From assembly GCA_027623205.1 (NCBI GenBank), contig JAQBYC010000047.1, positions 1 through 33,783 of the forward strand: a stretch of DNA of 33,783 bases, in the 5' to 3' direction. How positions within the stretch are numbered: the first letter of the stretch is position 1; each line of letters opens with the position of its first letter. Source of the DNA: Pseudomonadota bacterium (GTDB lineage Bacteria > Pseudomonadota > Alphaproteobacteria > GCA-2731375). A program made the position numbers and the translations under genes. The notes beneath the pieces are model-generated. The model saw only the letters and a list, made by a program, of their open reading frames with translations. It did not search any database and was not told where the DNA came from. Below, piece after piece: positions 22,269 to 28,456 of this stretch.

Positions 22269-23090
22269 TCAGTTGCCGTTGTGGTTGGGGCGCGGGATGC
22301 CGATCAGATTGAAGCCGTTGTCCACATTCATCACTTCGCCGGTTACCGCGCTTGACAGATCCGAAAGCAGATACAGGCCGCTATTGCCGATGGCTTCCAG
22401 ATCCAGGCCATTGGGCAAAGGTGAATGTTCGTTGGCATATTTATGGACGTAGCGGCCATCGGCGATGGCCGCGCCGGCCAGGGTACGCATGGGGCCGGCC
22501 GAAATGGCATTGACCCGGACATTATCCTTGCCCAGATCCTCGGCCAGATAACGCACAGAGGTTTCCAGCGCCGCCTTGGCGACGCCCATGACGTTGTAGG
22601 ACGGCATCACCCGATGAGCGCCCAGGAAGCTCAAGGTCACCATGGCGCCACCATTGGTCATCAGGGCGGATGCGCGGCGGGCCAGATCGGTAAACGAAAA
22701 GCACGAGATGGATAAGGTTTGAATAAAATTTTCCCGGCTGGTGTCCACATAACGGCCGCTTAATTCTGCCCGGTCGGAATAGGCAATGGCGTGCACCAGA
22801 AAATCCAGACTGCCCCAATGTTCGCTGATGGCAGCAAACAGGGCATCCAGGCTGCCAGAATCCGTCACATCGCAGGGCATCACCAGTTGACAGTCCAATG
22901 TAGCCGCCAATGGCTCCACCCGTTTCAGAAAGCTATCGCCCTGATAGGTCAGCGCGAGTTCCGCGCCGGCGCCATGCAGCGCCCTGGCGATGCCATAGGC
23001 GATGGAGTGATCATTGGCGATGCCAAGCACCAAGCCGCGCTTACCAGCCATGAGTTGATTTCTAGCAGCTTCCGTCATGCGCTTTCCCAT
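22269..23090 (-). CDS. fabI: Enoyl-ACP reductase FabI (NADH-dependent)
   Basis: FabI performs the last reduction of each fatty acid elongation cycle and is the triclosan/diazaborine target. The 273-residue protein has the N-terminal GKRGLVLGIANDHSIAYGIA cofactor region. The catalytic Tyr165 and Lys172 sit in SYNVMGVAKAALE with the FabI-specific YX6K spacing. AISAGPMRTLAGAAI and GEVMNVDNGFN are also typical. Starts at the codons for residues 1, 5 and 13 are all possible; the first is used here because a GGGA lies six bases upstream. It follows fabB by 53 bp, giving the conserved fabA-fabB-fabI order. Confidence 0.95.
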   Translation of the reverse strand: MGKRMTEAARNQLMAGKRGLVLGIANDHSIAYGIARALHGAGAELALTYQGDSFLKRVEPLAATLDCQLVMPCDVTDSGSLDALFAAISEHWGSLDFLVHAIAYSDRAELSGRYVDTSRENFIQTLSISCFSFTDLARRASALMTNGGAMVTLSFLGAHRVMPSYNVMGVAKAALETSVRYLAEDLGKDNVRVNAISAGPMRTLAGAAIADGRYVHKYANEHSPLPNGLDLEAIGNSGLYLLSDLSSAVTGEVMNVDNGFNLIGIPRPNHNGN

Positions 23091-23143
23091 CGCTGTCCCG
23101 CTTTGTTCGGGCTTTTCTTTGTTTCATGCAAATCAACTGCCAG

Positions 23144-24361
23144 TTACTCGGCAAACCGGTCGAAGATAAGGGTCGCGTTAGTGCCGCCAAAGCCAAAGCT
23201 GTTGGACATGACCGACACCAACCCGGCGTTATCTATGCGTTCGCGCACCACCGGAATATCCTCGAACGCCGGGTCCAGGTTATCGATATTGGCGGACGCG
23301 GCAATGAAATCCCCTTCCAACATTATCAGCGAGTAGATCGCCTCGTTAGCGCCGGCCGCTCCCTGGGCATGGCCGGTGAGGGATTTGGTGGACGCGATGG
23401 GCGGAATGTTGGCGCCAAATACCGCGCGCACCGCCGCCATTTCCGGTGGATCGCCTACCGGTGTGCCGGTGCCATGGGCATTGATATAGCCGATCGGATT
23501 CGGCGCCGTGGCCAGCGCCTGGCGCATGCTGCGTGCGGCGCCATCTCCCGAAGGCTGCACCATGTCATAGCCGTCCGAGGTGGCGCCATAGCCCGTGATC
23601 TCGGCGTAGATTTTAGCACCCCGGGCCTTGGCATGCTCCAATTCTTCCAGGACCAACACGCCGCCGCCACCTGAAATGACGAAGCCGTCCCGATCCACAT
23701 CATAGGGCCGCGAGGCGCGCTCCGGCGTGTCATTGAATTTAGAAGACATCGCCCCCATGCCATCAAACAGCACTGATAGCGTCCAATGCAGTTCCTCGCC
23801 GCCGCCTGAGAACATCACGTCCTGTTTGTCGAACTGGATCTGCTCCGCCGCGTTGCCGATACAATGGGCCGAGGTGGAACAGGCGGAGACAATAGAATAG
23901 TTAAGGCCCTTGATCTTGAATTCAGTGGCCAGAACAGCTGAGGTCGTGGACGACATACAGCGGGTCACCATGTAGGGACCGACCCGTTTGGCGCCTTTGT
24001 CCCGTGCTGTGTCCGCTGCCCAGACCAGATTTGAGGTGGATGATCCGCCCGACCCGACGATGATGCCGGTTCTCTCGTTCGAGATCTCCGCCGGTTCCAG
24101 GCCCGAGTCCGCGATCGCCTGCCGCATGGCCAAATAATTATAGGCCGCGCCATCGCCCATGAAACGCAGCGCCTTGCGGTCAATATGCGCAGCCAAATCT
24201 ACTTTCAAACTACCGTGCACCCGAGAGCGGAATTTATACTCTGCGTATTCAGGCGCCGCTACGATGCCGGAGCGGCCATCCCGCAACGATTGGGCCACCT
24301 CGTCCTTTGTGTTGCCGATGGAGGAAATGATTCCCAATCCCGTAACGACGACTCTGCGCAT
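23144..24361 (-). CDS. fabB: Beta-ketoacyl-ACP synthase I FabB
   Basis: FabB condenses malonyl-ACP with acyl-ACP and is needed to elongate cis-unsaturated intermediates made by FabA. The 405-residue protein has the thiolase fold and the full Cys-His-His triad: Cys161 (VSACSTSAH), His296 ([11 protein letters not shown]) and His331 ([13 protein letters not shown]). The [13 protein letters not shown]-terminal motif is present. The segment GDPPEM after His296 differs slightly from the usual GDxxE pattern. The gene starts 57 bp after fabA and is assigned FabB rather than FabF because of this neighbour and its general sequence. Confidence 0.95.
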
Positions 24362-24418
24362 AGCAACCTCTATATCAATTTAGACCGGGTCCTACAGGGG
24401 ACCGTGACCGAATGCAGG

Positions 24419-24937
24419 TCAGGTGAACAACGCCACCCGCAAATCTTCCGCTTCGAAGGCCAATGCGCCGTCCACTTTCGCGATGGCATCCGCCACCGCC
24501 AACACGAGACGACGATTGACCAGGCGTTTTACATTCACTTCGAAAGACACCAGTTTTGCAGATGGCAGCACCTGTTCTGACAGCTTGACCTTGCCACAGC
24601 TCAGCGCCCGGCCTCTCCCCGGCAGACCGCACCAGCCGGCGAAAAATCCCAGCATCTGCCATACGGCGTCTTGCACCAGGCAGCCGGGCATGACCGGATC
24701 AGATTCGAAATGACAGTCGAAAAACCACAAATCGGGCTTGATATCCAATTCCGCCGTGGCTTGGCCTTTGTCAAAGGCGCCGCCGTCCCTGGTTATCGAG
24801 GTGATGCGGTCAAGCATCAACATAGGCGGTAATGGCAATCTGGCATTGCCCGGCCCGAACAGGCGACCGTGGCCGCATTCCAATAAGTCTTCCAGCCCAT
24901 AGCTGGATTTTGCCTTGAACGAAGAACTGTCAATCAC
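24419..24937 (-). CDS. fabA: 3-hydroxydecanoyl-ACP dehydratase/isomerase FabA
   Basis: FabA dehydrates 3-hydroxydecanoyl-ACP and isomerises the product to the cis-3 form, the branch point to unsaturated fatty acids. The 172-residue hot-dog-fold protein has the N-terminal [20 protein letters not shown] signature. The catalytic residues are His76 ([16 protein letters not shown]) and Asp90 ([10 protein letters not shown]), matching His70/Asp84 of E. coli. The start is GTG at 24937, with GGATGG eight bases upstream. It is divergent from irr, a conserved alphaproteobacterial arrangement. Confidence 0.95.
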
Positions 24938-25262: not shown

Positions 25263-25697
25263 ATGGGAACCCAGACGATGGTTGATTTGAGACCCGTTGC
25301 CAACGTGATACGGGATCTGCGAGCGGTCGGATTGCGTCCGACGCGCCAACGTTTGGCATTGGCGTCTCTGCTGTTTGGCTGCGGTAACCGGCATGCAACA
25401 GCGGAAAGCCTTTACGACAACGCTCAACAGGCGGGGATCAAAGTCAGCCTGGCGACGGTTTACAATACCTTGCATCAATTCACCTCCGCCGGTTTACTGC
25501 GGCAAGTCGTTGTCAATTCAACCCGTAGTTATTTTGATACCAATATTGAAGACCATCACCATTTCTATTTTGAAGATACGGGCGAGATTGCTGATATTCC
25601 AAATGGCAGGATTGCTTCGATTGCCCCGACTGATTTGCCCGCGGATATGGAATTGTCCCGTGTGGACATTATCGTGCGGCTGCGTCGCACTCAATAG
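25263..25697 (+). CDS. irr: Irr, iron/heme-responsive Fur-family regulator
   Basis: Irr is the alphaproteobacterial Fur-family regulator that acts under iron limitation and is inactivated by heme. The 144-residue protein has the winged helix (about 18-88; GLRPTRQRLALASLLF, SLATVYNTLHQFTSAGLL) and the diagnostic histidine cluster His98-His100 in EDHHHFYFEDTGEI, part of the heme/metal site. The N-terminal GCP heme-regulatory motif of the Bradyrhizobium protein is absent (Cys40 is followed by Gly), as in many other Irr proteins. ATG 25278 is an alternative start. It is divergent from fabA, and an Irr-like operator lies directly after its stop codon. Confidence 0.92.
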   Translation: MGTQTMVDLRPVANVIRDLRAVGLRPTRQRLALASLLFGCGNRHATAESLYDNAQQAGIKVSLATVYNTLHQFTSAGLLRQVVVNSTRSYFDTNIEDHHHFYFEDTGEIADIPNGRIASIAPTDLPADMELSRVDIIVRLRRTQ

Positions 25698-25714
25698 TTT
25701 GGAATTGTTCTAAA
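25698..25714. promoter_or_regulatory. ICE/Irr-box-like palindrome upstream of rubrerythrin
   Basis: tttggaa-ttg-ttctaaa is an inverted repeat with one mismatch. It closely matches the iron control element bound by Irr (TTTAGAA-N3-TTCTAAA type). It begins at the first base after the irr stop codon and ends 5 bp before a TTGACG -35-like hexamer. A site upstream of the -35 could serve activation, or repression by overlap with polymerase. Confidence 0.6.
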
Positions 25715-25719
25715 ATATG

Positions 25720-25749
25720 TTGACGCCGGACACCATCTTACCCTATGCA
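25720..25749 (+). promoter_or_regulatory. Candidate rubrerythrin promoter
   Basis: TTGACG (25720-25725) is followed 18 bp later by TATGCA (25744-25749). The -35 is good and the -10 is weak. It would leave a leader of about 180 nt before rubrerythrin, containing a tgttttgg-N9-ccaaaaca inverted repeat (25816-25840). The site is supported mainly by its position next to the ICE-like box. Confidence 0.4.
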
Positions 25750-25934
25750 TGGTTAATGGACTGAGCATCGTGGCAAGCCGTTCGTGGTGCGCCGATGAAT
25801 AATATTTCGGGTGATTGTTTTGGGCTCAGGAACCAAAACATTTGCAGGGAGTTACGGCAGATTGCCCGAATCAGAGCCGTAATATCCACTAACGCACTTG
25901 GCGTAATGTTAGGTGACAACAAGGAGGATTAGGT

Positions 25935-26354
25935 ATGTCGCTCAAGGGAACCAAGACTGAACAGAATTTGAAAGATGCATTCGCCGGTGAAAGCCAGGCC
26001 AACCGGCGCTATCTGTATTTTGCGCAAAAGGCCGATGTCGAAGGCTATAACGACGTGGCGACTGTTTTCCGCTCCACGGCGGAAGGTGAAACGGGTCATG
26101 CGCACGGGCATCTCGAATTTTTGGAAGAAACCGGCGATCCGGCGACAGGCGAGCCCATTGGGCCCACCGCACTAAATTTGAAAGCAGCGGTGGCTGGCGA
26201 AACCCACGAATACACCGATATGTACCCTGGCATGACCCGGACCGCGCGCGAGGAAGGTTTTGATGAAATCGCCGACTGGTTTGAAACCCTGGCGAAGGCT
26301 GAAAAAAGCCACGCGGGCCGCTTCCAAAAGGCGCTGGATACGCTCGACGACTAA
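25935..26354 (+). CDS. Rubrerythrin (diiron peroxidase lacking rubredoxin domain)
   Basis: Rubrerythrins reduce hydrogen peroxide at a non-haem diiron centre in a four-helix bundle. The 139-residue protein has the ligand set Glu19 (AGES), Glu52 and His55 ([10 protein letters not shown]), Glu89 and Glu92 (GETHEY), and Glu123 and His126 (KAEKSH). It stops directly after the bundle: the C-terminal rubredoxin domain with its two CxxC pairs found in classical rubrerythrin (about 191 residues) is absent. It therefore needs a separate electron donor. A strong AAGGAGG site (in acaaggagga) precedes the ATG. The downstream Fe-S protein and DUF3501 gene are the likely functional partners. Confidence 0.93.
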
Positions 26355-26388
26355 AATACCGGCTGTCCGCCTGGTAATTGCCTTGGGG

Positions 26389-26420
26389 AAGGGGGTGCCA
26401 GGCCGGTTCCCCCTTTCTTT
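26389..26420 (+). terminator. Possible terminator after rubrerythrin
   Basis: aagggggtgcc (26389-26399) and ggttccccctt (26405-26415) form an 11-bp stem with one mismatch and one G-U, followed by tcttt. The T tract is poor, so it may be leaky, allowing more rubrerythrin than downstream products, or it may act as a 3'-stabilising hairpin. Confidence 0.5.
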
Positions 26421-26507
26421 CAGGCGTTTGCCGTATTTTTGGTTCATGCCAGTTGAATGATACCCGATGGACAATGCCTCCGTGGATGGAGAGGGGAGAT
26501 CTTGGCG

Positions 26508-27863
26508 ATGAGTAAAGAAGGCAGCCTGGAGTCGCCAACTCGACATCCTATTCCCTGGACGGACCCGGCGTATCTCGATGCCGGTGAGATTGATGCCGAA
26601 TTGCGGCGGGTCTTCGATATTTGCCACGGTTGCCGGCGCTGCTTCAACCTTTGTGATTCCTTTCCCCGGTTATTCGATCTGATCGATGACAGCCCGTCGG
26701 GAGAATTGGATACGGTCCCTTCAGGCGAGTTCTCCAAGGTGGTGGATGCCTGCACATTTTGCGATATGTGCTTTATGACCAAATGTCCCTATGTGCCGCC
26801 GCACGAATTCGATTTGGATTTCCCGCATCTGATGTTGCGTTATCGCGCCGCCGAACAGGCCGCGGGCAAAGTAGGGTTCCGCCGGAAGCAATTGGCCAAG
26901 ACCGACCGCAATGGCAAATGGGCCGGGAATGCGGCCGGACTGGCCAATTGGGCCACGGCGGAGGGTAATTTCGGCATGCGTAATTTGCTGGGAGATTTGG
27001 CCGGGATTCATCCCAAAGCCGCACTGCCGAAATATCATGCCAAGAGCTTTTTGGACAGGGCGGCAGAAGTTCCGGCCCTGAACACCGCGGCACCCGGCCA
27101 TGGCCGAAAGGCCGTGATCTACGCCACCTGCTTCGCCAATTATAACGAACCCGCCATGGGCATGGCGGCCCGGGCAGTCCTCGCACATAATGGCGTGGCG
27201 ACCCAGGTGGTCTATCCATCGTGCTGCGGCATGCCCATGTGGGAACAGGGTGATTTGGCCCAGGTTGCGGAAAACGCCCAAAAAGTCGCCGGCGAAATGG
27301 CCGCGTGGATCGACCAGGGTCATGCCGTCATCGCCCTGGTGCCGTCCTGCGCCTTGATGTTGAAGTTCGAATGGCCGCTGTTGTTGCCCGACGATGAAGA
27401 TGTGCGGCGGCTGTCGGAAAATACCTATGACATTACCGAGTACATTGTTGCCCTGGCGCGTGATTCCGGTCTGGCGGCGGGCTTGGCGCCTTTGCCGGGT
27501 GGGGTGACGTTGCATCTGGCCTGTCACGCCAGAGCCCAGAACATGGGCGCCAAGGGGGCGGAAATGTTGCGCCTGATCCCGGACACGGAAGTCTCGGTGG
27601 TGGAGCGTTGCTCCGGTCACGGCGGGGCCTGGGGGATTATGAAGGAAAATTTCGAAGTCGCTCTGAAAGTCGGTAAACCCGCAGCCCGTCAGGCTTTGAA
27701 AGCGGGCAGCGCCTGGGTGGTCTCGGAATGCCCCCTGGCAGCCACCCATTTGCGCCAGGGTATGGAGCGTCTGGCGAGCGAAGTGCCCCGCACAGTGGCG
27801 CATCCCATAATACTGCTGGCCCAGGCCTATGGCATGCCGCAAGAGGACAGCGACTCGTCGTGA
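26508..27863 (+). CDS. GlpC/HdrD-like Fe-S protein with two [4Fe-4S] and CCG domains
   Basis: The 451-residue soluble protein has two ferredoxin-type motifs: Cys39-42-45-49 (CHGCRRCFNLC) and Cys82-85-88-93 (CTFCDMCFMTKC). Two CCG-type domains follow. The first has Cys208 and Cys239-Cys240 (SCCGMP); the second has Cys339 and a degenerate CSGHGG at 368-373. This architecture resembles GlpC and heterodisulfide reductase subunits, and suggests electron transfer to or from a thiol/disulfide or quinone partner. The start at 26508 has GAGGGGAGA eight bases upstream; the frame is open further up, but without that site. The 3' end overlaps the DUF3501 gene by 4 bp. The rubrerythrin-FeS-DUF3501 trio recurs in other proteobacteria, as far as I recall. 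Confidence 0.88.
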   Translation: MSKEGSLESPTRHPIPWTDPAYLDAGEIDAELRRVFDICHGCRRCFNLCDSFPRLFDLIDDSPSGELDTVPSGEFSKVVDACTFCDMCFMTKCPYVPPHEFDLDFPHLMLRYRAAEQAAGKVGFRRKQLAKTDRNGKWAGNAAGLANWATAEGNFGMRNLLGDLAGIHPKAALPKYHAKSFLDRAAEVPALNTAAPGHGRKAVIYATCFANYNEPAMGMAARAVLAHNGVATQVVYPSCCGMPMWEQGDLAQVAENAQKVAGEMAAWIDQGHAVIALVPSCALMLKFEWPLLLPDDEDVRRLSENTYDITEYIVALARDSGLAAGLAPLPGGVTLHLACHARAQNMGAKGAEMLRLIPDTEVSVVERCSGHGGAWGIMKENFEVALKVGKPAARQALKAGSAWVVSECPLAATHLRQGMERLASEVPRTVAHPIILLAQAYGMPQEDSDSS

Positions 27864-28456
27864 AACCTAAACGCAGCATTCAACGCGATGATATCCAATC
27901 GCTTGAGGCCTATGGCGTCGAACGGTCGAAGCGGCGACGCGCGATCATCAGCTACAAACGCCACCGGCGCCTGGAGGTGGGACCCGTCGCCGCCTTTTAT
28001 TTCGAGAATTACAACACCATGCTGTCCCAGATTCAGGAAATGTTGTGGATCGAAAAAGGCGGGGAGGATCAGATTGCCGACGAACTGGCGGCCTATAACC
28101 CCCTGATCCCTCAGGGCCGGGAGTTGGTCGCGACCTTGATGTTCGAAATTGCCGAGCCGACCCGCCGTTTGGCGTTGTTGTCCCGCCTAGGCCGCGTCGA
28201 GGAGATGGTCAGCCTGGATGTCGCCGGGCAAAAGATATTGGCCATGCCGGAACGCGGGGACGGCGTTGAACGCACACGCGCGGACGGAAAAACCTCGTCC
28301 ATCCATTTTTTGCATTTCCCTTTTCAGATGGACCAAATTGCCGCCTTTCGCGAACCTGGTGCCCGCATCATCGCCGCCATTGACCACCCCGAATATGCCC
28401 ATATGGCCGTTATGCCCGAGGCCATGCGTCAGGTTCTGGCCGAGGACTTCGATTAG
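27860..28456 (+). CDS. DUF3501 family protein
   Basis: The function of DUF3501 is unknown. The 198-residue protein matches the family's usual length and has the recognisable stretches RLEVGPVAAFYFENYNTM and SQIQEMLWIEKGG in the N-terminal half, IPQGRELVATLMFEI in the middle and IHFLHFPF toward the C-terminus. It has no cysteine pattern, signal peptide or membrane helix, so it is probably not itself a redox-cofactor protein. The GTG start at 27860 overlaps the stop of the Fe-S gene (GTGA), with AAGAGGA upstream; the frame is open for 130 bp before that, but inside the Fe-S gene. Strict coupling suggests a 1:1 partner or maturation factor for the Fe-S protein. Confidence 0.87.
   Translation: MKPKRSIQRDDIQSLEAYGVERSKRRRAIISYKRHRRLEVGPVAAFYFENYNTMLSQIQEMLWIEKGGEDQIADELAAYNPLIPQGRELVATLMFEIAEPTRRLALLSRLGRVEEMVSLDVAGQKILAMPERGDGVERTRADGKTSSIHFLHFPFQMDQIAAFREPGARIIAAIDHPEYAHMAVMPEAMRQVLAEDFD

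Follow-up and report, generated by a model that had tools for sequence, protein, structure and literature searches.

Heme-free Irr binds iron control elements (ICEs); heme, and in some species also peroxide, leads to removal or inactivation of the protein (PMC7762939, PMC4902296). Depending on the position of its site, Irr represses or activates transcription (reviewed in PMC7762939). In R. sphaeroides, Irr binds the boxes of mbfA and ccpA, and both genes are more highly expressed without Irr under iron limitation, with ccpA being ∼1.8-fold higher in an irr mutant (PMC3413700). The mbfA gene, which encodes a rubrerythrin-like membrane-bound ferritin, is repressed through an Irr-bound palindrome in Bradyrhizobium japonicum (blr7895), Agrobacterium and R. 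sphaeroides (PMC3413700, PMC4902296), while for ccpA (RSP_2395) binding of Irr to the box was seen in gel shifts and the mRNA 5' end lies ∼40 nt downstream (PMC3413700). As to rubrerythrin, Irr, the protein itself and an iron-responsive rbr gene have been reported from Ca. Pelagibacter ubique, with rbr rising 1.57-fold upon iron limitation (PMC2864753). What is known already thus comprises Irr boxes, the control of the rubrerythrin-like mbfA by Irr and the occurrence of irr together with rbr in SAR11. Our literature search found no paper on Irr control of rbr through such a site, and the main survey of alphaproteobacterial iron regulons (Rodionov 2006) may already list some rbr sites.

Here, we analyse an Irr box between irr and rbr of a Pseudomonadota bacterium (Alphaproteobacteria; GCA-2731375). 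The window, i.e. the whole stretch of DNA under analysis, comprises 33,783 nt of contig JAQBYC010000047.1 (assembly GCA_027623205.1). Its rbr geometry is nearly the same as that of R. sphaeroides ccpA, and both targets are peroxide-scavenging enzymes; however, ccpA encodes a di-heme cytochrome c peroxidase and the window target is a rubrerythrin, and whereas the window box adjoins irr, nothing in the cited work places ccpA beside irr. The differences from mbfA concern both protein and site. MbfA exports iron as a membrane protein and has a ferritin-like domain at its N-terminus, whereas the window target is a soluble rubrerythrin of 139 aa. In R. sphaeroides, the mRNA 5' end of mbfA falls within the box, whereas the window box lies upstream of the -35 element. 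Pelagibacter-type loci share the window's order of irr, box, -35 element and rbr.

A near-perfect Irr box at the predicted rbr promoter

The original prediction was that a near-perfect Irr/ICE box, one base away from a perfect palindrome, follows the irr stop codon without a gap; the single-base difference was confirmed at 25698-25714. The putative Irr operator of rbr, TTTGGAATTGTTCTAAA on the forward strand, has one mismatch to the palindrome TTTAGAA-N3-TTCTAAA and starts at the base directly after the irr stop codon TAG (25695-25697). In the window, the box was the only site with at most three mismatches (0.25 expected), and a pattern search of the 5.0-Mb genome returned it as the only site with at most one. 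Six genomic sites besides the box have exactly two mismatches; at up to two mismatches genome-wide, the motif and a reversed control matched seven times each, i.e. without excess, so that the enrichment rests on strong sites only. When the 237-bp irr-rbr intergenic region was shuffled 20,000 times, one mismatch was reached in none of the shuffles and two mismatches in 10.

The box was also scored with a matrix trained on 41 boxes from outside the window's own family (maximum, 30.9 bits). It obtained 26.57 bits (training mean, 23.5), the runner-up position in the window obtained 12.52 bits, and a simulated first-order Markov background of 5 Mb had no position with a score as high as that of the box or higher. 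A matrix score at background level would have told against the original prediction, and the box stood clearly above that level. As to genome-wide scope, pattern searches were run on the 5.0-Mb genome and the matrix was compared with simulated background. At position 4, where the box has its mismatch, its G ranks second in frequency in the matrix (0.16).

The prediction had further placed the box 5 bp before a TTGACG hexamer and upstream of rubrerythrin, both of which hold according to the sequence and the PF02915 match of the downstream gene. The hexamer (25720-25725, + strand), with its conserved spacing from the box, is the predicted -35 element of rbr, and rbr begins 220 bp beyond the box end. 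A candidate -10 element, CTATGC (25743-25748, + strand), follows after a 17-bp spacer; it is weak, and most sister genomes of the genus carry CATATGGAT at this position. Transcription from this promoter, which is predicted from sequence, would start ∼41 nt past the box end, near 25755. A simple promoter scan of the window did not call the predicted rbr promoter because its -10 element is weak.

The irr-rbr locus

The upstream gene (25263-25697, + strand) encodes a Fur-family iron response regulator of 144 aa that exceeded the curated cut-offs of both NCBIfam Irr models (NF045678, 191.4 bits against 150; NF045677, 182.5 bits against 170). Its translation contains EDHHHFYFE, so the HXH heme-binding motif is present within the HHHFYFE stretch. 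The N-terminal heme regulatory motif of the Bradyrhizobium degradation type, Cys-Pro, was found nowhere in the 144-aa protein. Cys-Pro is a subtype feature that is not required of Irr; without it, heme-triggered degradation is not implied, and we infer that loss of DNA binding may be the likelier effect of heme on this protein. Among the three Fur-family proteins of the genome, only the irr product exceeded an Irr cut-off; the other two look like Fur and Zur. Assignment of the irr product to PerR was rejected, as all PerR models scored far below their cut-offs (81 bits against 250 and 60 bits against 200).

The proposed target, rbr (25935-26354, + strand), is preceded by AAGGAGGA at 25921-25928, ahead of its ATG. 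Its 139-aa product has the rubrerythrin di-iron domain (PF02915, 105.7 bits) and lacks the C-terminal rubredoxin domain of classical rubrerythrins, being a short rubrerythrin; its match to NF045767 was confined to model positions 3-145 of 194 and stayed below the cut-off. Two further genes complete the rbr-CCG-DUF3501 set, namely that of a cysteine-rich CCG-domain Fe-S protein (26508-27863, + strand; PF02754), whose start was inferred from relatives beginning with ATGAGTAAGGAAGGC (the list of open reading frames has 26457), and that of a DUF3501 protein (27728-28456, + strand; PF12007, 184 bits).

Two other features of the locus were observed. Soon after rbr, an inverted repeat rich in G/C (GGGGG...CCCCC) with TTTCTTTC behind it was seen by eye at 26355-26430. 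It could act as a terminator after rbr, ahead of the CCG gene; a terminator scan called nothing at this repeat. On the far side of irr, and divergent from it, lie fabI, fabB and fabA (22269-24937, - strand), and the same layout is seen next to irr in many relatives.

Conservation of the box and its association with rbr and Irr

All 11 genomes of the genus (11/11) have the box directly after the irr stop codon, with TTGAC 5 bp beyond. Across these genomes, the mean frequency of the major base was 0.94 in the box, 0.81 in the promoter and 0.50 in the intergenic region further down. In a class-wide sample of 69 adjacent irr-rbr pairs, boxes with at most one mismatch were present in 24 (<0.0001 of shuffles), with at most two in 43 (0.0014 of shuffles, 0.14%) and with at most three in 54 (0.015 of shuffles, 1.5%). 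In three seeming misses the box overlaps the irr 3' end. Among 62 loci with boxes of up to four mismatches, a TTGAC-like hexamer follows at a distance of 3-6 bp in 53; in other families the box is more distant from irr and its place at the -35 element is kept. Pelagibacter-type contigs have the order irr-box-TTGACA-rbr; in some of them, another TTTAGAA half overlaps the -10 element, 31 bp on, and this half is absent from the window.

Additional boxes were noticed at several loci. A second ICE-like box 67-183 bp after rbr, before the CCG gene, was found in 7 of the 14 loci from the window's own family, and the window lacks it. At one locus (L154), the rbr -35 element is flanked by two perfect boxes whose starts are 32 bp apart, and at four others by tandem Irr boxes or half-boxes ∼three helical turns apart.

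Loci where one partner has moved or is missing serve as natural controls. In genomes where irr and rbr are unlinked, the box (at most one mismatch) is kept at six of the seven rbr genes. Conversely, no box was found downstream of 19 of the 20 irr genes that lack an adjoining rbr; at the lone exception, irr is followed by a box, TTGACA and katG, the latter in the place of rbr. Among 12 rbr-bearing genomes that we call Irr-less, having no NF045677 match over the cut-off, one rbr gene had a box at up to two mismatches and two at up to three. A perfect box in one genome without a recognised Irr, and the lack of a box in one genome with both irr and rbr, count against an Irr operator. The association of box and Irr was significant at up to three mismatches when shared ancestry is ignored (Fisher p = 5e-5), and since the Irr-less genomes are mostly small, this co-occurrence is partly confounded with lineage. 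Taken together, the unlinked, Irr-less and rbr-less loci indicate that the box belongs to the promoter of the target and goes with Irr, not with the irr 3' end. By following unlinked rbr genes and being largely missing without Irr, the box behaves as expected of an Irr operator for rbr.

Further boxes and putative targets

Perfect boxes occurred at 47 sites in 289 alphaproteobacterial genomes, and 35 of the 47 precede peroxide-defence genes. By position, 18 of the 47 stand before rbr; the other neighbours were Dps-type ferritins (9), AhpC (5), a catalase-peroxidase, a catalase and a di-heme cytochrome c peroxidase (1 each), Rrf2 regulators (3) and SufB (1), with eight unclear; only part of these neighbours were run through Pfam, and some were assigned from near-identical sequences. 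Sites with one mismatch were found at katG (two loci), at a Dps gene and at a peroxiredoxin gene, whose box is identical to that of the window. Judged from these neighbours, the putative class-wide target set is peroxide defence together with Fe-S assembly.

The window genome has a strong box at rbr only. A wide Irr regulon in this genome was considered and rejected, as the other sites with up to two mismatches equal the reversed control in number, and a looser degenerate pattern gave no excess over control across the genus outside the irr-rbr locus. The best other intergenic site of the genome, before a TRAP-type DctP gene, scored 20.35 bits, about the level reached once in the 5 Mb background, and we do not put it forward as an Irr target. 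Autoregulation of irr through its own upstream region was likewise discarded, there being no box in that region of the window; boxes upstream of irr were seen in isolated relatives only (two loci).

Two observations extend to other classes. Upstream of beta- and gammaproteobacterial rbr genes without a neighbouring irr (ten loci), there is a look-alike but different palindrome, TTTAGACTNAGTCTAAA, which suggests another regulator of the same gene set in those loci. In two marine gammaproteobacterial contigs, an Irr-like protein is encoded just after rbr-CCG-DUF3501 (L119:5378-5770 and L124:5390-5785), with a perfect ICE before rbr; these proteins score ∼110 bits, under the Irr cut-offs, and the whole module was possibly acquired by horizontal transfer.

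Discussion

We read the palindrome as a putative operator through which the Irr encoded upstream would control rbr, be it negatively or positively, and put the probability of this reading at roughly 0.88. In the data, it builds on the sequence of the box, its uniqueness in the genome, its fixed place at the promoter and its occurrence together with rbr and Irr; physical binding by the window's Irr, and heme or peroxide as the signal, are what we infer beyond these. The suggestion in the original prediction that irr may directly regulate the adjoining rubrerythrin gene thus gains support, the regulator being a true Irr by both models and the box tracking rbr as well as Irr.

A plausible sequence of events would be that, at low levels of heme or iron, heme-free Irr dimers occupy the box and obstruct RNA polymerase at the -35 element next to it. 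With abundant heme, or after damage to or removal of Irr by peroxide, the box would become free and rbr would be expressed. We lean towards such repression over activation at rbr. In relatives, boxes lie at the -10 element or the start of dps and ahpC (four loci), and tandem boxes flank the -35 or -10 element at five loci; these placements, along with the second half-box of Pelagibacter-type loci, favour repression. The -35 element of the window, which is near consensus, counts in the same direction, as does the distance of ∼41 nt from box to predicted start, given that R. sphaeroides ccpA has ∼40 nt and is higher without Irr.

The same operator might instead serve Irr as an activator, which, bound just upstream of the -35 element, would recruit RNA polymerase at low heme or iron. 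We consider this the less probable mode. The boxes of rbr genes are always upstream of the -35 element, mostly by 3-5 bp, Irr is known to activate depending on site position (PMC7762939), and the 1.57-fold rise of Pelagibacter rbr under iron limitation (PMC2864753) is opposite to what a simple repressor model predicts. On the other hand, a near-consensus -35 element suggests that an activator is unneeded, related targets have boxes over the -10 element or start, several promoters carry tandem boxes, and in R. sphaeroides the absence of Irr raises the expression of mbfA and ccpA (PMC3413700).

Readings that do without Irr fare far worse. The box could be an UP element, an AT-rich stretch to which the alpha subunit of RNA polymerase binds, making the rbr promoter stronger with no regulator involved. 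Its AT-richness and its location at approximately -58 to -42 of the predicted start, where UP elements sit, would fit, but the box is a palindrome with a conserved G (position 5) and C (position 13) at 0.86 each, is largely lost without Irr, and occupies different positions where it is found at dps, ahpC and katG, which makes this explanation very improbable. Still harder to uphold is that the box is a 3' element of irr, i.e. a terminator or an mRNA-stability hairpin that lies near rbr by gene order only. It is palindromic and directly adjoins the irr stop codon, and its 17 bases alone fold at -1.9 kcal/mol; this is a weak hairpin, however, the terminator scan lists none at the box, and outside the genus the box is farther from irr yet still beside the -35 element. 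We rejected this reading, contradicted as it is by the rbr genes that keep the box when unlinked from irr (6/7) and by the irr genes without rbr that lack it (19/20). A chance near-palindrome without function has next to no likelihood, for although one site with at most one mismatch somewhere in 5 Mb would be unremarkable by itself, this one occupies the very intergenic region where a box would be expected most, its score greatly exceeds the background, and many families have the box at the same place in the promoter, a conservation that contradicts chance.

The Irr operator reading has a counterpart outside the Proteobacteria. PerR of Firmicutes, another Fur-family regulator, acts at palindromic operators that precede katA, ahpC, mrgA/dps and rubrerythrin-like genes, a target set that closely resembles the class-wide ICE targets. 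It belongs to a different subfamily and senses peroxide through bound Fe or Mn. We tentatively propose, holding it plausible though less likely than not, that the core Irr regulon across Alphaproteobacteria might be peroxide defence and not iron uptake, which would make Irr a heme-linked stand-in for PerR with rbr as its commonest target (elsewhere dps, ahpC, katG, catalase and ccpA). The broad iron regulon of rhizobia would then be a later expansion, and rbr perhaps almost the sole Irr target in the window genome.

In summary, the present analysis outlines a wiring from Irr to rubrerythrin that is testable across the class, with one operator kept at one promoter position and with unlinked and Irr-less genomes as natural controls. 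If confirmed, the matrix and the target list would be available for mapping Irr regulons beyond rhizobia, and heme or iron status could set the level of peroxide protection in many alphaproteobacteria that lack PerR.
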